The position numbers and the translations under genes are program-made. Below are positions 2,786-64,000 of a stretch of DNA of 64,000 bases, piece after piece. Below the pieces are notes generated by a model. The model did no database searches and was not told where the DNA came from. It saw only the letters and a list, made by a program, of their open reading frames with translations. Where the stretch lies: contig CM049417.1 of the NCBI GenBank assembly GCA_026929865.2, positions 2,003,501 to 2,067,500 on the forward strand, written 5' to 3'. The stretch is from Hyperoplus lanceolatus (Eukaryota > Chordata > Actinopteri > Uranoscopiformes > Ammodytidae). Position 1 is the stretch's first letter. Each line of letters begins with the position of its first letter.

Positions 2786-5700
2786 ATGGAGTTCACATCA
2801 CTTTGCCTAGTGCTCTGTAAGTCATTTTACCTTTCCTTATCCTCTCCTGTAAACCATTGCGTCTTCTCAAGTCAACCTAGAACAATGTAACATCCGGAGT
2901 ACTTGAGTTTGTGCTATTTTGTAATTGATGACACATAGCCAAACATAAAGTCCTGCTCAGATAGGTAATGTAAACATTTTACAAAAATTGAGGTAAAATA
3001 GAAAGTGTGCAGAATGAAATTTATTTTTGTCACAGGTTTTCAAAATTTGAATATGCTTAATGTATACTGACATTGTTTCAACTGATTCCACGCCTAGTGT
3101 CATCTAGCGTCACACTGATGTGGTCCCCAAAAGACAAATAACTTAGAAAGATGAAAACGTTTTAAAACTGCTGGCATTTATTTCATGTCACTGGGGGGCA
3201 TAGAAATATGCTGATAGAAAGACAGATGTTTTTTTCTGGTAAATAAATCGACTCTTAGTGGACACTGTGCAACATTTACATCCTATCGATGTTATATGTG
3301 TCCGCATGATGTCCACCATCTGAGAAAAAAAATATGGCCCTTACTGCTACTTAACATGTTCCACTTTCTTCACAAACTGTGTCCATCTGTCATTTGATTG
3401 TGGACGGATTGCGTACAGGTTTTTTTTTTTATGTCTTGAACAACAACAATGAAATCTGTTGGTGAATATGTCCTGTTTGAAAATCCCCTTGCAGCCACAC
3501 TGAGCATCACTCCCGACAGATCCCAGTTCTTTCTCTATGAGCACATCTCTTTCAAGTGTGTGGGGCCGGCAAACTCCACGGGCTGGATAGTGAAAAGAAA
3601 CACATCCAAGACCTGGTCAGATGTTTGCAAGAAAGGTTGGGGGATCCCTGGTGAGAACTCCTGCATCAATAAAGGTGCCTTCCCATCAGACACTGGGGTG
3701 TACTGGTGTGAGTCCGGGCAGGGGAAGTGCAGCAACACCGTCAACATCACAGTGACAGGTAATAGCAAATATGCATTGAGCTTGTTTGTGTCAATTTCAG
3801 TGCAGCTTTGCATCTTTGTAATCTGCTGGGTTGTTAAAGTGACAAAGAGGAACTTTGTAATGTTAATGAAACTGTCTAGTTTTTCCTCTTAAGATCATAT
3901 ATGACCTGTGACAGCAAACCAAACCATCAGTGCAAAGGATGCCATTTTTTTTTCGTAATGACTTTGCTCGGGTCTGAATACCCGCCTTCTCAGACCAAAT
4001 CATTTATGGCAGGCAGACGGGGAAAGCCTGTGTTTATGAACGCTATACAAATCTCAGTTTACTTTGCTTCACCATGGTCATATTACCATAATTAATCTGA
4101 CACAGTCACATATAAATACATTACCTCATGGCCATGCATGCTGCTGTCTCTCTTTCACTCGCTCTATTAACAAATGGACGCGTTAGCAAATATCATTAGC
4201 ACAGCAGTTGCTGGCGTGGTAAAAACACTACTGCTTTTGTCTAAAGGGGGCGCTATAATCAACAACAACTTAAAGTTCCTCATATTTACTTTACACAGTC
4301 ATTTTTGCACTAAGAATTACTTTGAATCAATGAAATACATAAAGTATGGAAATGTATACTGTGTTTGTTCTTCAATACTTCAGATAAGAGCGTCATCCTG
4401 GATAGCCCTGCACTTCCTGTGATTGTGGGAGATAAAGTGACACTTTCCTGTTCCTACAAGGAAGAAGACCAAGATCAATCTACGTCAAACTTCCCTGTTG
4501 CCTTCTACAAAGACAATGTGTTCATCGGTAATAAGCCGGCAGGACAGATGATCCTTCCAGCAGTGTCCCGGTCTGACGAAGGCTTCTACAAGTGTGAACA
4601 TCCCACGAAAGGACAGTCAGAGCAGAGTTGGCTGGCTGTGATAGGTGACACCATTTATACATTCCTTTTGGGAAATAAAATATACAGAAAATACAATGAA
4701 ATAGTTAAGTAATGTTAAAATGTGGTTTCAACAAGGTACATGGAGGAAGAAGGTCTTTGACGTGTTAATATGTATGTTGTTGTTTGTTTGTGTTGCTATA
4801 TACAGACATTTGTAATTTGTTAAGAATGTGTTAAGACAAGACAGTTACAGTTACGCTCCTATAATGACTGTATGTCCTCTTGTTGCATCTTTTCATTTGG
4901 CACCGACTAATGAAAAATTTTCTTAAACTTCTGTTGATGATGATTGAATCTGTAATTGTTTTCTTCACAGATAAACCTCAAGTTGAAGTCCCCACCACCA
5001 CCTCTCTTCCTCCTCATCCTCTTATTCCTCTGCCCAAACTGGTGTGCTCTATCCTGCTGTTCATCCTCTACACTGGAATACTCATTCTGTGTATTTGCAT
5101 CTACCGACGCTGGGCTCGAGGTATGAACTCCTCTGAAAATCCTAAGGGTGAAAGTGTTAACTTAAAGATATCAACATGTTGCCAGTTGATTACTTCAATT
5201 GATACCATTCATATTTGTATTAAAATTAGTTTTAGAAATGTTTAAATAAATGTGAAAATCTGGCTATCTCTTTAAAAACCAAAGAATCGATGTTGGATAA
5301 AGCCAGAGTTAAAATCTTTATTTAATCAACAACATATGAACAAATCTTTCTGTAATGACCTTCACAATAGAGCAGGTACAATAGACCTCAATAAAAAGTG
5401 AACAAGCTCCAGATAGCGGTAAATCATTGTCCAAATAGCCACCTCCCCCACTGGCCGCAGGCTGTGGTTTAACCCAGTGACGTCAGCAGCAACAATGGTA
5501 GAAAACAGGAAGTCAAAGCTTCATATTTAAAACTGAGGTTAAAATTCAGGTTATTTTTTCTGTCCACAATGGAATTTTTTATTCTGCTCCACCACAATCA
5601 ACAACATAAGCAATGAAAACAGAACTACACCTGCCATATTGTGTATTAATGAGTAAATATTTTATAGAAAACCTAGCATTGAATGCCAAGGACTGCAGGT

Positions 5701-6476
5701 GAAAATGTGCCTGCATGGCTAAATCTGGGACATTTACATGTTGAAATCTGGTGCTCATGTTTATTAATGTGCGCTGTCCCTTCTAAATAAAGAAATCTAA
5801 AACATTAATAACTTAATTCATCGAACAATGGAGCCTGTACCTATTATTTTTGATGTTTAGTTCATGCCTGCAGTTAATTGGTCCTTGGTTTGCCAATGAT
5901 ATTAATCACTGTTTTAAAGTCTCTGGAAAGTTGCCTTTTAATTCTGACTTTAAGGTGTCTGAACTTTTTATTTTTATCTATCGAATGCAAAGTCCTTTAG
6001 CCAAGCAGTTGCCTCTTGCTCTGCTGTATGTAGGTTGACGAGTCCTCCTTTAAGTTTTTGTAGAGGGCATGCTTCAATGATGTGTCTGAACTGAGCACCT
6101 AAGTAAAAATAAGTTTCTTTTTACTTAGTTAAATTGACTCCACTTAAAGATGCTACGAGGAACTTTTAAATATATCTGAAAGAGCCTATTTTTTCCTCTG
6201 ATGATCATAAATTACATGTAACAGCAAACGAGACAATCAGTGCAAAGAATGCTGTTTTTATATAGTTTTTCTAAATGCCTTTGTCATGTGTATGCTCACC
6301 CAGGAACAACAACTGGCGTAGTAAAAACACTACCGCTTTCGTCCAAAGGGGGGCGCTAGAATTAAGACACACTGAAAGTTCCTTGCAGCATCTTTAAGAC
6401 TTTCTCTCCTGTGTTTTGTCCTGCAGCTCGAGCCGATGCTAAACTGAGAGCGTCTGATCATCTTGAACTCGAATGA
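2786..6476 (+). CDS. Fc-receptor-like two-Ig membrane receptor (FCRL-A)
   Basis: This is a cell-surface receptor of the Fc-receptor/FCRL-like (or fish leukocyte immune-type receptor) group. Exons read: 2786-2816 signal start ([10 protein letters not shown]), 3495-3758 Ig D1, 4384-4644 Ig D2, 4971-5120 Pro/Thr stalk plus membrane segment ([20 protein letters not shown]), 6427-6476 tail and stop. All junctions are GT-AG and phase 1, giving 251 residues. D1 has the Cys pair in FKCVG and GVYWCES plus extra cysteines; D2 has LSCSY and GFYKCEH. The tail ([16 protein letters not shown]) has no tyrosine and the membrane segment has no charged residue, so neither ITIM signalling nor obvious adaptor pairing is indicated. 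The small second leader exon (21-24 nt) usual for this family was not found. Everything from about 4318 on is duplicated at 30.1 kb. Ligand unknown; immunoglobulin binding would be inference. Confidence 0.75.
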
Positions 6477-7720
6477 AGAAGAAAAGATACATCTTGGGGC
6501 GGCAGTGGCGAAGTGGGCAGAGAGGTCGCCTCTGGAGTGCAGGGTCGGAGGTTCGATCTCCCGTCTACCTGCCACATGTCGAAGTGTCCCTGGGCAAGAC
6601 ATTGAACCCCGAATTGCTCCCGATAGTTAGCTTGCACCCTGCGTGGAAGCTGCTGCTATCTGTGTATGAATGTGTGTGTGATTGGGTGAATGTGTACGAA
6701 ACAATGTAAAGCGCTTTGAGTCTGTGAAAAACCATTTATCCTACATATATAATATATTAAAAAAAAAATTATTATTATTTTTCCTTCTAGCTGCTTTAAC
6801 GTGATGCCTATGAGCTTCATATAATAATCCTGTTCACTGAACCACGTTGTGCTGGTTAACCTGGTAATAAGCTTTACGCTATAAACATTATATTATTTAT
6901 ATTTCTTATTCCTATGTAGCAGTGTGTATCCAAACTGTTTTTGTTCAATTATAAAACTAATAAAAAACATTATTATTTTGGAGACTTCTCTAACCATATA
7001 TGCAAACTTGGACGAATGTTGATGCATTTATTTTTATGACTTCACACTGATAACTAGTTTATAACCAGACCAGTCATAAACCAAAGTATTATGAGAAGTT
7101 GGTGGTTCACAATTGTATTTACAATATAGATAGTGAAGTGGGAATAATGTCTATGTCCTTTTTTTACATTGCAATCCATTCAATATCTGTTGAGACATTT
7201 TAGCCTGACCAAGTGACTGAGAGAAACTTCATGACAAATTATCTTAGTTATAATTAGACAAAATAATTAATAATACGAACCGGTCTTTGCATCAAAACCT
7301 TTTGTTTATGGGTGTGAACAGTTACTGTCTGCTCAGGACCAAAATATACTGTATACTGTCCCACTGCTAACATGCATACAGTAAGTTTCTCACCATCTGT
7401 CACTCACAGCTACATGTGTCTTTACCAACAGCAGGGGGCGTTATTGAGTAGTTTATTATAAGAAGATGAGTCATCAGACAGCCATTCCAAAGCCCCAGTC
7501 CAGTCCGATGACCCATTTGTACCGGGCCTTAAAATAAAAAATAAATAAAAATGTAATTAAATAAATATTTCATTTTTATTTGTTTTCTTTTTTCTCTTAT
7601 ATTCTAAGGGGTCCTTACACACATATACAGAAAGTAAAGAACACCAAATATACACAAACAAAGATCTCCCAAGCCTAACTACTCAGACACCCACCTTCTA
7701 AATATAATGAGTAATAATTT
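4318..7720 (+). repeat. Segmental duplication, copy 1 (3' half of FCRL-A plus flank)
   Basis: This stretch matches 30127-33535 in the same orientation, through introns as well as exons. It covers the D2, membrane and tail exons of FCRL-A and about 1.2 kb of downstream spacer. The D2 proteins differ at about six of 87 aligned residues, so the duplication looks recent. The match starts at about 4318, inside the D1-D2 intron, and fades near 7720 where copy 1 is interrupted by a Tc1-like insertion. Confidence 0.85.
6494..6735 (+). mobile_element. tRNA-derived SINE
   Basis: The head has tRNA-like A-box (GGCAGTGGCGAAGTGGGCAG) and B-box (GGTTCGATCTC) promoter words. The body is a common teleost SINE sequence ending in TGTAAAGCGCTTTGAGT and an A/T-rich tail. 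It starts directly behind the FCRL-A stop codon, so it would be part of that 3' UTR. The duplicated copy at 32340-32430 keeps only the 3' part, so the element was either inserted in copy 1 or largely deleted from copy 2. Confidence 0.75.
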
Positions 7721-7728
7721 AATACATT

Positions 7729-8700
7729 TACAGTGCTGCTTGAAAGTTTGTGAACCCCTTAAGGAATTGTATTTATTTTAACCATTATCAATTAATTTTT
7801 ATTAATACCAGTATTTTTATATGAAATAACAGATGTTTGTTTATCAATTCAACATGTTTCTTTTTCAGAAATCAATTGTTAAAACAGATTTGACAACTTT
7901 TGGATGTGCAAAAGTTTGTGAACCCTAAGCTGCATTGCTTAAATCAAGCAAGGTAAACACAATCAGGTGGGCCAAACTGATTGATGAAATAGACCAATGT
8001 AATGAGAGATCTTGAGGGAAGAAATTGGGCGGCATTAGATAAAACAGAGATCAAACCAGGTCAGTTTAGGCTCACCAAACTGAACCCATACAGGTCAGAC
8101 ATGCCAAAAGGGGAAAAAATCTCAGAGGATCTCAGGAATAGAGTTTTGATGTTGCACATTTGTCTGAGGCTTTAAAGCTATAAATTCATATAAAAAAAAG
8201 TTTGAACTCCATCGGTCCACCGTGAGGCAAATCATCTACAAATGGAGAGCTTTAAGAGTGACTTAACATCTGCCTAGAAGTGGACTTCCTTCAAAAATAT
8301 CCACAAGCGCCACAAGAAAAGGGACTTTTCAGGTAAAAGCCAACCAAACATTACATCTGGAGATTTGCACCCAGCCTTGGAACGCCTCCACAGCCACATC
8401 ATCACAGGCCAGGTCCATAGCCCTGAGAAGGTTTGGTTGGACTCGTTGTCCCGCTTGATTACATAGTGCTGTAAATGACTCACTCGTAGTAACACTAACC
8501 AACTGATACAATAATCTGGTAGTTTTTTGTGAAATTATTTTGTTTCTGTTTGCAAAGTAAAATAATGTAATCATCCAAAAAGTAGGATGTTTGGAAAACC
8601 TGTGTTAAAAATGCCTTGCTCTGTTTGACAGCAAAACAAATGTAAAAAATTAAAAAAGTGAAATTTTCATAGATGGGCTAATAATTTTGTCCTCAACTGT
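7729..8700. mobile_element. Tc1/mariner-like transposon remnants
   Basis: The left edge (7731) has the Tc1-family terminal word CAGTGCTGCTTGAAAGTTTG. A related GTGCAAAAGTTTGTGAACCC word recurs near 7910. The right edge near 8670-8700 has GGGCTAATAATTTTGTCCTC AACTGTA, another Tc1-type end. No intact transposase frame remains, so this is likely a mosaic of more than one dead element. The insertion coincides with the end of the segmental duplication and with the truncation of a receptor-tail block that continues at about 8455. Confidence 0.5.
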
Positions 8701-15938: not shown

Positions 15939-22053
<6,115 letters not shown>

Positions 22054-27360: not shown

Positions 27361-28781
27361 GATATACCATGACCTTGATGATTTGGCCATACTAATGATT
27401 GACATGATTGTGCTTTACTCTGTCCAACAGGCAGGCAAGAATATCTCGTAAAAAGTGACTGCAGTCAATATTAACATTACATATTGGAAAATCTGAGGTT
27501 GTTCTTCAATTTCCAAACAGTTTGAACATGACAGAAACAGTTAATTTTCTGCCCCCCGCTGTACAATAGCAAACCCAACAACTGCACTCTTAAAGGCATA
27601 GTCAGTGATTCTAATCTTGAAAACTTTTTGTCAAAATCCGCTAATATCTACTAACCATCCGCTACCTGTCTAAAGTGTGTGCGTGCTGAAAAATAATCGG
27701 TGTTTATACACAACCAAGGCTCGTTAAACGGCTATCCTAACGCAGTGGCTCAGGGCGAGCCACACCCAGCTCGTCTGGGGTTGCCGCTTGGGCACAGCCC
27801 TCCCCCACCCCCCTGTGTCGATCGTATTGATAGACCTTCTTAAGGGCTTTGGATCTGAATGCAGCTGTAATATGCCATACTAGTGATCAGCTAGATAAGA
27901 ACTGGGTCAAAGTTCAGCTGTTTACAAAGTTACTCAAAGTGTAATTGACTGCAGAGCAACACAAGCAGAGCAATAAATTCAGTCAATAATTGACAGTTTC
28001 CTGACATGAACCACACATCATGCAGCAGGTACGTCTTCTTTGGTTTTAATTTTGATCAATTATACATGTGTAGTGGTATTTCAAAATCGCATGTTGGTCT
28101 GTATATCTCAATTAGGATTAGATTGAGTTAATAACAGATAAAAAAGATTTTAAAAAAGTTGGTTTTAAAGCTTTTGTGTAAGTGAAAGTAGAACAGTGTC
28201 CCTACACCATGCAAAGACATTGCTACATGTAGCTGAGCAGCCATAGACATATGTGACGGTGAAATCTATTTGATTTTGGATATAGCAAAAGTCCACAGAT
28301 AAGATGATTTTATAATGCTAAAGTACATTATGGGTATTCTCTGCTAGCTGTATTTCCATTATTAGACAAATGGAATCCATAGATAGCTAAAACAAAACTA
28401 ACACACTTAACATAGGTTCACATGTGCACACAGATACATACTTAAATACTGTAGATAATTACGTATTGTAATTATTAAGCCTGGATATCAAGCTACATAC
28501 CATTTTGTCTCGTGATTTGTTTAACATTTTATCTTTAAATCACAAAAGAGAGGACATTCGTAGTTTAACACTATCGTGACCTTGACCCATAGTAGGTAGA
28601 TAATTCATGACATCTCGATAACGGCTGCTTTAGGTTTTAGCTTTTGCTCTTTTATCATATGTATCTCAGGTGCAGTGCTCTTTTAAGACTGCTCAGTCAT
28701 GGCTAAATTCTACCTAAATAACAATTTTAAATAATTATTTATACTCTATCTATGCCATTGCTCCATTTTCAGAGATGTAGG
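27361..28781. other. Spacer upstream of the hybrid receptor; nothing coding seen
   Basis: AT-rich sequence with one GC-rich patch (about 27740-27810) and no recognised gene. Sequence just before 28782 (TTTTCAGAGATGTAG) allows a 5' UTR intron acceptor, but this is not certain. No promoter element was identified. Confidence 0.4.
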
Positions 28782-31700
28782 ATGCTTCATGGGGCCGACC
28801 AACTGTCCCTTCAAATTCCCCTCAGTGTTTTGGTTTTCCATCTTCTCCTGACACACCCTTGTAGAGGTAAACCACATACTATAAATAATAATTTTGTAGT
28901 CCTGTTGCAGAAACCCTGTCTTCATAAATTATTGTTATTAAATATAAATATATTTTGGAGATAAAGCTGGTTGGATGCCTGCATGTGTTCATTAAATTAT
29001 CATTGCAATTAACAACTAACCTTTATCCCACTGATTGTAAAATTGTGACTGATACTAAATTTATAATTTACTGTTAAAAATAAGAACAAATATTCCTTTT
29101 TTATTTGATGGGTGCTTTATAGTGCAGGAATTAATTTAAAGATCTATGTCTTTCTAGGTCAGTCTCAGATGATTGGTCCAACTCGATCAATAGTAGCAAG
29201 AGTTGGCGATGACATCATTTTGCCATGCCACCTGACACCTGCATTAGATGTTACTACAGAGACATTGGAGTGGAAGAGATCTGACATAAGCCCAAGATTT
29301 GTCAATGTGCGCCGTTCTCGTCAGGACCTGGAAAATGTCAGAAATCCATCCTACAAAGGAAGAACTTCCCTGTTCAATGACCAACTTGAGCAAGGAAACA
29401 TTTCACTGAAACTCTCCAAAGTGGAACCCTCCGATCAGGGAACATATGAATGTGACATCCCACTACTCCATAAAAAATCTTCCGTTAAGCTTGTTGTTGG
29501 TAAGTAGTCACATACAGTATGTGGTCATAGCACACTGGTATAGACTCTGTATCCTATAAAGGATTTTGGTGGGAACAACTTACTTTGATGTCGGGAAAGG
29601 AAAGTCTACAATGGCGCCAGAACAGTGACATTAACTTTTGGCATGGAAACATCTATTTTTTGTCGTTAATCACTCCCTACTATTTAAGAAACTGAATAAT
29701 ACAAGATATTAGACATGACATTTATTTTATTGACAGTTGTATCATCATGCTAATGTGGATCTCATAAAAGTCTTCAATATTGACAAACAGTTTTTAAAGG
29801 TGATTTTAATTATTAGATTTGAATTCTGTTCTTTATTTTTTTTTTAGAATTTGGAGATTATTAATTAAAAAAAAAATTGTTCCACTGACACTGCTGTTTT
29901 TCAATTTTCCCTTTTGCTCAGCATCAGATACTATCCCCCTGCCTGTCATCAGTTTAGCAGGGACTGACAGAAACAGAGGAGGAGTGGTGTTGCAGTGTGA
30001 GTCTAGAGGCTGGTGTCCAAAGCCTGAGGTGCTTTGGCTGGACGGTGAGGGAAAGCTCCTCTCTGCTGGACCTCCAGAGACAGTCACAGGTCCTGATGAC
30101 CTCTATACTGTCAGCAGCACAGTGAAATTTTTTTTGAATCAATGAAATACATAAAGTGTGGACATGTATACTGTGTTTGTTCTTCAATACTTCAGATAAG
30201 AGCGTCATCCTGGATAGCCCTGCACTTCCTGTGATGGTGGGAGATAAAGTGACACTTTCCTGTTCCTACAAGGAAGAAGACCAAGATCAATCTACGTCAA
30301 ACTTCCCTGCTGCCTTCTACAAAGACAATGTGTTCATCGGTAATGAGCCGGCAGGAGAGATGATCCTCCCGGCAGTGTCCCGGTCTGACGAAGGCTTCTA
30401 CAAGTGTGAACACCGCCCCACGAAAGGACTGTCAGAGCAGAGTTGGCTGGCTGTGATAGGTGACACCATTTATACATTCCTTTTGGGAAATAAAATATAC
30501 AGAAAATACAATGAAATAGTTAACTAATGTTAAAATATGGTTTCAACAAGGTACATGGAGGGAGAAAGTCTATGTATGTTGTTGTTTGTTTGTGTTGCTA
30601 TATACAGACATTTGTAATTTGTAAAGAATGTGTTAAGACAAGACAGTTACAGTTACTCTCCTATAATGACTGTATGTCCTCTTGTTGCATCTTTTCATTT
30701 GGCACCGACTAATGAAAAATGTTCTTAAACTTCTGTTGATGATGATTGAATCTGTAATTGTTTTCTTCACAGATAAACCTCAAGGTGAAGTCCCCACCAC
30801 CACCACCTTTCCTCCCTCTCCTCATCCTCTTATTCCTCTGCCCAAACTGGTGTGCTCTGCCCTGCTGTTCATCCTCTACACTGGAATACTCATTCTGTGT
30901 ATTTGCATCTACCGACGCTGGGCTCGAGGTATGAACTCCTCTGAAAATCCTAAGGGTAAAAGTTTTAACTTAAAGATATCAACATGTTGCCAGTTGATTT
31001 CTTCAATTGATACCATTCATATTTGTATTAAAATGAGTTTTAGACATGTTTAAATAAATGTGAAAATCTGGCTATCTATTTAAAAACCAAAGAAATCGAT
31101 GTTGGATATATATATAGTTAAAATCTTTATTTCATTTTTACAACATATGAGTGTCCAAAGTTCTTACAGACAAGATTTTGGATACAGCCTTATTTTTCCT
31201 TTTTATACTTTAAAAATACTATATTCTTATGCATTTTCCGCATGTTTGTAAGAAGAAAATGTCTCATAAATCAGACAATCATCAACATATGAAGACATCC
31301 TACTGTAATAACCTTCACAATAGTGCAGGTACAAGTGATGGACAATAAAAAGTGAACAAGCTCCAGATAGCGGTAAAATCATAGTCCAAATAGCCACCTC
31401 CCCCACTGGCCGCAGGCTGTGGTTTAAACCCAGTGACGTCAGCAGCAACAATGGTAGAACACAGGAAGTCAAAGAAGACACTGCTTCATATTTAAAACTG
31501 AGGTTAAAATTCAGGTTAATTTTTCTGTCCACAATGGAATTTTTTATTCTGCTTCACCGCAATCAACAACATAGGCAATAAAAACAGAACTACACCTGCC
31601 ATATTGTCTGTTAATGAGTAAATATTTTATAGAAAACCTAGCTTGTACTAACAGTGAATGCCAGGGACTCTGCAGGTGAAAATGAGCCTGCATGGCTAAA

Positions 31701-32324
31701 TCTGGGACATTTACATGTTGAACTCTGGTGCTCATGTTTATCAATGTGCGCGGTTCCTTCTAAATAAAGAAATCTAAAACATTAATAACTTAATCCATCG
31801 AACAACGGAGCCTGTACTTATTCTTTTTTATTTTTAGTTCATGCCTGCAGTTAAGTTGTCTATGGTTTGCCAATAATATTAATCACTGTTTTAACAACTC
31901 TAGAAGGTTGCCTTTTAATTCTGACTTTAAGGTCTCTGAACTGAGCAGCTGAGTAAAAATAAGTTGCTTTTTACTTGGTTAAATTGATTCCACTTAAAAG
32001 GTGCTACGAGGAATTTTTAAATATTTCTGAAACAGTCAATTTTTTCCTCTGATGATCATAAATTACATCAAACGAGTCCATCATTACAAAGAATGCTATT
32101 TTTATATAGTTTTTCTGAATGCCTTTGTAATTGGTATACTCTCACCCAGGAACAACAGCTGGCGTAGTAAAACACTACTGCTTTTGTCCAAATAAAAGGG
32201 GGCGATAGAATTAACACAAACTGAAAGTTCCTCAGAGCACTGTAAGACTTTCTCTCCTGTGTTTTGTCCTGCAGCTCGAGCCGATGCTAAGCAGAGAGCG
32301 TCTGATCATCTTGAACTCCAATGA
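28782..32324 (+). CDS. Hybrid receptor: butyrophilin-like IgV joined to Fc-receptor-like Ig, membrane and tail exons
   Basis: Exons with matching phase-1 junctions: 28782-28866 leader ([20 protein letters not shown]), 29158-29499 butyrophilin-type IgV ([15 protein letters not shown]), 30196-30459 Fc-receptor-like D2 (LSCSY, GFYKCEH), 30773-30928 stalk and membrane segment ([20 protein letters not shown]), 32275-32324 tail and stop ([16 protein letters not shown]). The sum is 897 nt, 298 residues. The butyrophilin IgC exon between them (29922 to about 30125) lost its 3' half and donor where the duplicated FCRL-A segment joins, so it must be skipped for this product; skipping keeps the frame. 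The IgV is close to that of BTNL-A. The tail has no tyrosine motif. If the IgC exon is instead read through, the protein stops shortly after the junction without a membrane anchor and would be secreted. Whether either form is made is unknown. Confidence 0.55.
29922..30125 (+). pseudogene. Truncated butyrophilin IgC exon at a duplication breakpoint
   Basis: The acceptor (TTTTGCTCAG) and first part of the IgC domain are intact ([20 protein letters not shown]) and match BTNL-A 18309 onward. The match stops after GTCAGCAGCACAGTGA, where sequence from the FCRL-A D1-D2 intron begins (from about 30133). The second domain cysteine and the donor are gone. The framework WYPKPE is WCPKPE here. Read-through meets TGA within ten codons. 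Confidence 0.8.
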
Positions 32325-33535
32325 AGAAGAAAAAATACATCTTGTGACATTGCCATCGGAGTGTGTGTATGAATGGGTGAATGTGGTAAGATATGTAGAG
32401 CGCTTTGGGGCTGAGAAAATCGGAAAACCATTTACCATTGCCGATATAACCGTGAAAAAGGCAATAGTCCTGTGCCTGTATTTATCCTACATACTGTATA
32501 TTATATACTTTAAATGTTGTATTTTTTTCATTTTTCATTCTAGCTGCTTTAACATGGTTCATTTAATAATACTTTGGACTGAACCACGTTGTGCTGGTTA
32601 ACCTGGTAATAAGCTTTACGCTATAAACATTATATTATTCATATTTCTTATTCCTATGTAGCAGTGTGTATCCAAACTGTTTTTCCTCAATTATAAAACT
32701 AGTAAAAAAGATTATTATTTTGGAGCTGAATTTTCATTTATGTATTATATATTTCAGAGACTTCTTTAACCATGTATGTGAACCTCTGCAGCTTGGACCA
32801 ATGTGGATGCATTTATTTTTATGACTTCACACTGATAACTAGTTTATAACCAGACCAGTCATAAACCAAAGTATTATATGAGAAGTATGTGGTTCACAAT
32901 TGTATTTACAATAGACAGTGAAGTGGGAATAATGTGTATGCGATCTGTTTTAAACACTGCAATCCATTCAATATCTGTTGAGACGTTTAAGCCAAAACCA
33001 AAGTGACTGAGAGAAACTTCATGACAAATGATCTTAGTTATGACAAGACAAATGAATTAATAATATGAACTGGTCTTTGCATCAAAACCTGTTGTGTCTG
33101 GATGTGATAACAGAGAAGTTATAAATGTTCTACCTGGGACAATTAACCAAGGACTACTGTCTGGTTAGGACCCAAATATACTGTCCCACTGCTAACATGC
33201 ATACAGTAAGTTTCTGATCAGCTGTCACTCACAGCTACATGTGTCTTTACCAACAGCAGGGGGCGCCATTGAGTAGTTTATTATAAGAAGGATAAACTCC
33301 TTGAGATGAATCATCAGACCGCCATTCCAAAGCCCCGGTCTGGTCCGATGACCCATTTGTACCGGGCCTTTAAATTAAATTAAATTAGATTACATTTGTA
33401 TTTGTTTTCTTTTTTCTCTTAGATTCTAAGGGTCCTCACACACATATTCAGAAAGTAAAGAACACAAAATACACACAAACAAAGATCAAGCCTAACCACT
33501 CAGACACCCACCTTCTAAATATAATAAGTAATACT
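30127..33535 (+). repeat. Segmental duplication, copy 2
   Basis: Same-orientation copy of 4318-7720, joined to a butyrophilin-like gene at about 30126-30133. Introns and about 1.2 kb of 3' flank are included. Small differences include one extra codon in D2, two extra codons in the stalk, and loss of the SINE head. Confidence 0.85.
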
Positions 33536-35829
33536 ATAAAAAGTTTACCTACATCCCTGTTAAACCAGCTATTAACAGTATAAACATGAACATGCATCAA
33601 CACATTAAAAAGGAAAACAATTGTCACTAACCCATCATTGTTTAAGCAGGGATCAATTGTCTTTTTTGCCTCAACTAATTGCAATACCAATACTTGCCTT
33701 CAGATGTCACCATTGGGACTGCTTTGAACATTCATTTTAGTGAAACTAGATGCAATAAAATGTGTTATTTACTTGGCTCCAGTGGCGTCACTAGGCTGTT
33801 TTATTCGCCCCGAATCTATTTTGTAAAAAAAAAAAAAAAAAATGTTTTCAATATTTTGAAAATGGATATGACACAGAGCCTGTGTCATATCCACACGTCG
33901 CACATGCTCCCATTGGTTAGGAGTCTTGCCTAGCTTACTGTTAGGAATATCTCTTCGACTGCTCAAGATTTTAAGCCATGAATTGATTAACTTGCATTGA
34001 AGAAAATATGTCAGTTTTCTGTGGGCTGTAAATAGGACAATCTATGAGGCTAAATAGTGTGCTAATATTGATGATTGATTGTGTCAAGTGTCCATGGATG
34101 AACGCTAACATGATTTGTTTCCAACTTTTGCCTTAAGTTACAATTTAGCTAACTAGCTAGCTGCCCAGTGCCCACCCTTTTCATTTCCAATGGTGGCTGT
34201 CATTTCATTATCAATGTTAAGTGGCATAAATAGTTAACACTGGTGCTGAGTCATGAATCCTAAAAAAGAAATACCCTAAACATGTGATATGTTTTGAATT
34301 TGCAGAAAGTTTTGAAAAATCCTGGGTGCCTGAGAGCCTTTCTGCATTATTCTATTATAGTTGATTCTTTAGTAACCTGAATGTTGTCTTTTCCTTCACA
34401 GAAAAAAAAAAATTTCCACTATAAAATGATGCAGAAAAGGCACAGATAGATGAATAAAAATCCACCAGAATGCAGGAAATTAAGTGTTTGACGCTCAAAA
34501 ATTTCTGGTGGAGGACCACCATATGTTTCAGAAACCTAGAAATGCCCCTGCAGTTGGCTCTCAACAAATGTTCTTCTATAATTGTATCACTTTCTACCTC
34601 TCAAATAGACAAAATAAATATGTATTCATAAAAGTTTAAAATCACATTTAATTAAACTGGACCTTGCAGAGAAAGAGAGAGATGTGCTATGGATGATGGT
34701 ACCAAATGTTATGGCAGTCCCTACAATATTTAATGAGATATTCCAGTCTGGACCAACAAACAAACCGATCGGCAAAACAAATAAGATGTTGACCCATTTG
34801 CAGCAATCCCCGAAAAATATCTGTCTGCTCTTCCTTGTGTAAAGTTCCTACAAAAAACTCACTACAAGGAAGGACATGAATGGGAATATGTTCTTTCCAT
34901 GACAAACAAGGAAATAGAAACTGCACTTTAAAAATCAATGTTGTTTTACAGTACCATACAAAGACAACAGTACTTTCCTTGGCGATGATCACATGAAACT
35001 CGAAAGGGGAATTTAATTAATTATTTACTGATACTACTTTTCCAAGTGTGTTCAAAACAACAGAGACTGACTGACAGGTGAGTCACACTTTCTAATAAAC
35101 AACTATTAGGGAATTTCTCTTGATGTGTTTACAGAAGGCCTTGTGATAGTCAGTGATCTAATATTTATTTAATTCAGGGGGATTTATTCTGTTGATTTTG
35201 GTCACAGGTTGTTTTCACATGCAGGCTAAAAACAGACTGAACCTGGTTGAAAAGTGAAAGTTGTTTAGATGCCTACAGGTAATTTAACCCTGTGAAGTCC
35301 TTGAGGTGTTTTCATTATGTTTGGGTTATTATTATCCCCAAAAATACGGCATCTAAATGTGGTTTAAATATAAGGTTAGAAGGTGACGTTGCAACAGTTT
35401 TTCTGACTGCATCAAATCAAATTGTATACCCCCGTTATATCATTATTTTCACCCTAATGAATACCAAAACATGGTTTTCTTCTATAAACTTTTCCTGCTC
35501 AATGTACAAAATGTAATATTGATATTTGTAATTCTCCGCTCAGGAGGATAATTCAGATTATTGGCAGAGGTGATTTTACACCAAAGTAGGACATAGATTA
35601 AGAGTGAGAGGATATTGATTCCCTTAAAATTAAAAGTTACACAGCTTACGCCCCTTTAGAGGTATCTTATTTAGTCGTTGAACTGTGATTAGTTAGGGTA
35701 CAACCCTCTGTTAAGCAACAATTATCAGACTATATTTCATAATAAAGCAGATACAGCAAAATCACACAAGTTTGATTTCAGAAATCACAGTTGTTCAACA
35801 GGTCTTAACCAAAATACAGATACATTTGC
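33536..35829. other. Spacer; no gene seen, one perfect hairpin
   Basis: AT-rich sequence. At 33863-33893 a 14-bp stem (TGGATATGACACAG) closes over a 3-nt loop. The part around 34868-34980 resembles 10370-10480, and 35498-35580 recurs at 39440-39520, so the region is partly built from local duplicates. No coding exon was recognised. Confidence 0.45.
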
Positions 35830-63472: not shown

Positions 63473-64000
63473 AATTCCTAACTCAAAGCAGTAAAGCATT
63501 GTGTTGCATTGTGTTAATATCTATCTCTGTAATTCCTAACTCAAAGTAGTAAAGCATTGTGTTGCATTGTGTTAATATCTATCTCTGTAATTCCTAACTC
63601 AAAGTAGTAAAGCATTGTGTTGCATTGTGTTAATATCTATCTCTGTAATTCCTAACTCAAAGCAGTAAAGCATTGTGTTGCATTGTGTTAATATCTATCT
63701 CTGTAATTCCTAACTCAAAGTAGTAAAGCATTGTGTTGCATTGTGTTAATATCTATCTCTGTAATTCCTAACTCAAAGTAGTAAAGCATTGTGTTGCATT
63801 GTGTTAATATCTATCTCTGTAATTCCTAACTCAAAGCAGTAAAGCATTGTGTTGCATTGTGTTAATATCTATCTCTGTAATTCCTAACTCAAAGTAGTAA
63901 AGCATTGTGTTGCATTGTGTTAATATCTATCTCTGTAATTCCTAACTCAAAGTAGTAAAGCATTGTGTTGCATTGTGTTAATATCTATCTCTGTAATTCC
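63473..64000. repeat. 58-bp minisatellite, at least nine copies, running out of the window
   Basis: Near-identical 58-bp units start at 63481, 63539, 63597, 63655, 63713, 63771, 63829, 63887 and 63945. The only obvious variable site is C or T in AAAG(C/T)AGTAAAG, in the order C T T C T T C T T. The array continues past the window edge. Confidence 0.97.

Follow-up and report, generated by a model that had tools for sequence, protein, structure and literature searches.

Does the DNA at 28782-32324 hold a genuine gene in which the front of a butyrophilin-like (BTNL) gene runs into the back of an Fc-receptor-like (FCRL) gene, and would such a gene make a functional protein? The locus lies in a window of 64,000 nucleotides (C23:2003501-2067500), whose own numbering is used below unless C23 is given, and genome-wide searches covered the 806.7-Mb assembly of 527 contigs. 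As the best explanation overall we somewhat favour a real, fairly young BTNL-FCRL gene fusion in a cluster where genes of the two families are interleaved. The genes of the window are:

3.5-6.5 kb, plus strand: gene A, FCRL-type
16-19 kb, plus strand: gene B, BTNL-type, with IgV and IgC exons at 16978-18601, a relative of the 5' half of gene C
26 kb, minus strand: gene F, FCRL-type
28.8 kb, plus strand: gene C, the fused gene, with a BTNL-type front
41-42.6 kb, minus strand: gene G, FCRL-type
47.3 kb: gene D, BTNL-type
60 kb, minus strand: gene E, BTNL-type

Gene C itself is made up of the following parts:

28782-28866, plus strand: BTNL leader exon, ending in phase 1, common to two BTNL paralogues
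29158-29499, plus strand: BTNL IgV exon, phase 1-1
29922-30125, plus strand: 5' portion of a BTNL IgC exon, truncated ahead of its second cysteine and its donor
30126-30132, plus strand: BTNL/FCRL junction
30196-30459, plus strand: D2 exon, the FCRL second Ig domain, phase 1-1
30773-30928, plus strand: stalk and transmembrane (TM) exon
32275-32324, plus strand: cytoplasmic tail exon with the stop codon

Spliced together, the leader, IgV, D2, TM, and tail exons give 897 nt, encoding 298 residues and a stop codon without interruption, with GT/AG boundaries in all four introns. Gene B and a BTNL gene at C23:1871 kb have similar leaders, and the IgV of gene C is a V-set domain (2.7e-12) of the BTN/B7/MOG type, with CD276, BTN3A, and MOG heading its PDB matches. 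Beyond the IgV, where a BTNL gene would continue with a complete IgC and a BTNL TM exon, the BTNL likeness stops at 30125 and an FCRL TM exon occupies the place of the latter. A profile of nine cluster D2 domains, that of gene C included, matches FCRL5 (1.4e-34), as an FcR-type D2 should, whereas the D2 of gene C alone has Contactin-2 as its top match (3.2e-5), with FcR chains no better than 0.006, so the FCRL label of the tail half rests on the D2 profile and on the D1-D2 layout of gene A. The D1 that precedes D2 in FcR-type genes is missing from gene C. Read directly from the translation, the TM segment carries no charged residue, and the tail neither an ITIM nor an ITAM. One base ahead of the start codon lies an ATG-TAG start-stop element (28775-28780), which weighs against the fusion-gene reading.

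The change from one family to the other is sharp at base level. Upstream of the junction, 30066-30125 is identical to gene B at 58 of 60 bases, with no match to gene A (25/60, against a shuffle maximum of 31). Downstream, 30126-30195 agrees with gene B at 30 of 70 bases, which is chance level (shuffle mean 29.9, maximum 37), and 30138-30195 agrees with gene A at 56 of 58. In blastn, 29894-30125 corresponds to 18281-18512 of gene B at 84%, and 30133-31150 to 4321-5339 of gene A at 94%, the latter match beginning at 4321, inside the D1-D2 intron of gene A, and continuing in pieces to 33548 (7731 in gene A). The BTNL-front, FCRL-back locus is confirmed as an observation and is probably genuine. 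The first-pass annotation was correct on the chimeric layout, the junction, the exon phases, and the frame of 298 residues (blastn, exon model, GT/AG), save that it ended the locus at 32324, whilst likeness to gene A extends further, to 33548.

The strongest alternative is that a BTNL front and an FCRL back are adjacent remnants, joined by rearrangement and either not expressed as a unit or functionless, their frames still being open because the rearrangement was recent; this we regard as a credible possibility. It draws on the FCRL half, where the coding divergence from gene A (18/461) equals that of the introns of the same tract (20/577), and where the D2, TM, and tail exons give a dN of 0.036 and a dS of 0.047 (dN/dS ~0.77, Fisher p 0.57). 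Purifying selection on the FCRL half is not detectable, so gene C could be a pseudogene, and the word receptor, used of it in the first-pass annotation, is not supported as stated, given that coding sequence has diverged as much as introns. Furthermore, the half IgC exon has three changes specific to gene C, all of them nonsynonymous and none synonymous, and the poly(A) signal is weakened: 3' of the stop codon, AATAAA at 6959 in gene A reads AGTAAA in gene C, where the only poly(A) signals found within 1.3 kb are ATTAAA at 33374 and 33379. Against the idea of remnants stand the open frame and the intact boundaries of all four introns, as do the indels between genes C and A, both coding ones preserving the frame (2/2 multiples of three, compared with 6/29 in noncoding DNA), and the D2 of gene C, which has evolved no faster than that of gene A (branch lengths 0.027 vs 0.072).

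The openness of the frames can be weighed against neutral decay, under which the chance of finding the leader, IgV, and FCRL half all open is 0.0005 to 0.11 across six settings, the locus having been chosen for its open frame; the value of 0.11 arises when the fusion is dated by the tract of 3.5% divergence from gene A. Though it would go unused, the half IgC exon too has stayed open (neutral chance 0.21 to 0.65), so openness is weak evidence at such an age. An excess of departures from invariant positions in the half IgC exon was considered and rejected, its 2 of 42 lying within the range of 0 to 2 seen in other paralogues. Judged from the sequence, the chance that gene C makes a functional protein, rather than being a decaying pair of gene halves, appears somewhat under even. 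If unexpressed, gene C would be an unremarkable relic of the birth-and-death process by which an immune cluster evolves.

The BTNL half was compared with its paralogues. The IgV of gene C has one match at 100% in the assembly, with the next at 76% (seven matches, 7/7 candidates scored), and departs from 2 of 26 cluster-invariant positions, compared with 0 to 2 in the seven other genes apart from gene E, which has 8, row v1964 having been dropped ahead of this count. The first-pass annotation proposed dN/dS on the two halves as a check; the FCRL half gives the values above, and the IgV gives 0.36 against gene B, a signal of selection that is mostly older than the fusion. The IgV value was therefore set aside as fusion evidence, the divergence mainly predating the event. 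The resemblance between the half IgC exon and gene B, tried as a trace of the event, was likewise dropped, since the nearest relative of this exon in the 264 kb surveyed is the gene at C23:1870359, with a dS of 0.03 in the exon vs 0.61 in the IgV, and IgC exons appear to be homogenised cluster-wide. Pairwise dS among seven BTNL genes is 0.03 to 0.26 for the IgC and 0.15 to 0.97 for the IgV (gene B IgC 18310-18601, gene C 29922-30125, and five flanking genes; C23:1870-2034 kb). That these genes differ far less in their IgC than in their IgV exons suggests that the IgC is homogenised across the cluster while the IgV diverges. A BTNL paralogue at C23:1897333-1897668 (minus strand) has an IgV in which arginine replaces the first conserved cysteine.

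The half IgC exon no longer has a donor of its own, and what a transcript would do with this exon affects the predicted product. A candidate replacement lies within the exon:

30045-30046, plus strand: cryptic donor, strong (U1 duplex -8.8 kcal/mol), in frame with D2

Its U1 duplex of -8.8 kcal/mol compares with -5.8 to -8.6 kcal/mol at the four genuine donors of gene C. Use of this donor would give 339 residues in frame, and weaker in-frame cryptic donors at 29997 and 30090 would give 323 and 354 residues respectively, whilst with the half exon kept unspliced the frame stops at the junction after 216 residues. The first-pass annotation held that skipping of the broken exon follows and yields the 298-residue frame; the frame is as described, however skipping is predicted to be one of several possible splice outcomes, given the strong in-frame donor at 30045. 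The same annotation pointed to the phase 1 to phase 1 match of the IgV and D2 exons, which is correct as a fact and carries little weight as support. The IgV, D2, and TM exons of gene C and the D2 and TM exons of gene A all have lengths that are multiples of three and share the same phase, and because Ig exons are symmetric in this way an exon-level fusion stays in frame almost by default; the match, being expected, was dropped as fusion evidence.

How the two halves came together bears on a second alternative, that a duplicated 3' half of gene A landed in a BTNL gene until then intact and split the IgC exon of that gene, an account we consider unlikely. The two FCRL segments concerned are:

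30133-33548, plus strand: segment of gene C homologous to gene A, matching 4321-7731
4321-7731, plus strand: sister segment in gene A, with D2 at 4384-4644, TM at 4971-5120, and tail at 6427-6476

The 3.4 kb that genes A and C have in common, at 94% to 79% identity, is what such an insertion would leave. However, the 3' half of the BTNL IgC and the BTNL TM exon, expected beyond the insert, gave no match with gene B as the query from the junction to 41 kb, although the remainder of the BTNL gene could also have been lost. Nor do the substitutions point to copying from gene A: of the eight that separate the D2 exons, five are most simply derived in gene A, one to two in gene C, and one to two cannot be placed, the polarity having been read by eye from a table with distant outgroups. 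The FCRL tail of gene C is a sister of that of gene A and not clearly copied from it, and the gene A copy proposed by the first-pass annotation as imported is not supported, with five of the eight D2 changes derived in A.

Noncoding divergence between genes C and A rises in a step, from 3.5% within 30133-31130 (20/577) to 8.0% (77/966) and 8.9% (80/900) beyond 31130, counts that leave out 31131-31276 and a repeat after the stop codon. We take this step to reflect an early duplication followed by a conversion tract, in which case the divergence sets no more than limits on when the fusion arose. Among the 47 matches listed for the FCRL tail (40 of 7625 candidates scored), gene A is the sole other match to its exons, and the rest lie mostly on a repeat of ~250 bases found on many contigs. 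This repeat, mostly at 86 to 89% identity, occurs in the last introns of gene C (31993-32240) and gene A (6144-6390), with pieces also in the D1-D2 intron of gene A (3831-3966 and 4210-4282); the copies in genes A and C show four changes in gene A and five in gene C, with 17 not assignable, a tally that says nothing about relative rates. Among the candidates scored (IgV, 7/7; tail, 40 of 7625), the assembly showed no further copy of the fusion.

Set beside insertion, a deletion running from a BTNL gene into a neighbouring FCRL gene on the same strand would explain the fusion at least as well. No FCRL D1 was found from the junction to 41 kb, the nearest copies being those of genes F and G on the opposite strand. 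In the flank, a BTNL gene at C23:1917-1918 kb is followed 6.8 kb further on by a same-strand FCRL gene, and another at C23:1936-1937 kb is followed 5.9 kb further on in the same manner; a pair arranged like this, on losing the DNA between its members, would yield a locus such as gene C. The survey of the cluster covered 264 kb, including 35,000 bases of N, and revealed no other adjacent pair of IgV then D2. An FCRL D2-like stretch at C23:2073129-2073347, with no D1 found nearby, is possibly another fragment. An assembly misjoin of BTNL and FCRL segments is very improbable, for although the junction lies in a tandem cluster of paralogues, where misjoins happen, the contig runs for 22.7 Mb with no N in the window, and the gene C segment is distinct, differing from gene A by 3.5 to 9% in noncoding DNA.

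Under the favoured reading, that of a real gene fusion, a break inside the BTNL IgC exon would have been fused with the D1-D2 intron of a same-strand, A-type FCRL gene, the simplest such event being a deletion between two neighbours. The fused unit would retain the leader and IgV from the BTNL side and, from the FCRL side, D2 with the membrane anchor and a short tail, and would be transcribed from the BTNL promoter, with the half exon, its donor lost, either skipped (298 residues) or spliced from 30045 (339 residues). The predicted product is an IgV-Ig protein at the cell surface that lacks its own signalling motif and may bind a ligand, either as a decoy or via partners. A further step, to a working cross-family receptor in which a BTN-type IgV sits on an FCRL membrane-proximal Ig domain and anchor under a BTNL promoter, moving BTNL-type ligand recognition onto an FcR-type scaffold, is tentative and on present sequence evidence somewhat unlikely. 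If expressed, gene C would offer a recent cross-family example of vertebrate immune receptors gaining recognition domains, and so young a fusion could be traced in populations. With symmetric Ig exons and a mixed BTNL/FCRL cluster, deletion between neighbours would be a ready source of new receptors.

Compared with the other BTNL and FCRL genes in this cluster, each half of gene C is typical of its family, and the fusion is of a known general kind; what is unusual is the pairing across the BTNL and FCRL families. The first-pass annotation knew of no named receptor family with this pairing, and none was found by title in a literature search of open-licence papers. Hybrid KIR genes are reportedly chimeric Ig receptors formed by unequal crossing over in an immune cluster. 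These arise by recombination within one family, whereas gene C crosses families. In human BTNL8*3, a 56-kb deletion creates an in-frame chimeric transcript under the control of the upstream gene, with the protein detected (PMC3729544). The deletion proposed here would similarly yield an in-frame chimera in a BTNL cluster, predicted in our case from sequence; in contrast to BTNL8*3, where whole exons of two BTNL genes are joined (PMC3729544), gene C has a partner from the FCRL family and is broken within an exon. Catfish LITRs and Xenopus FcR-like receptors are described as having diversified via domain shuffling and intergenic exon recombination, with LITRs combining FcR-like and KIR-like domains, an account whose text contains no occurrence of the word butyrophilin (PMC2413239).

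Two minor features of the window lie outside these genes. On the minus strand, open frames at ~53.0 kb and 56.5-56.8 kb are candidate exons of a secreted phospholipase A2, and sit in a duplicated block of ~1.4 kb at 78% identity. Additionally, a tandem repeat with a period of 58 bases, whose copies are 98 to 100% alike, occupies 63473-64000 and runs to the end of the window.
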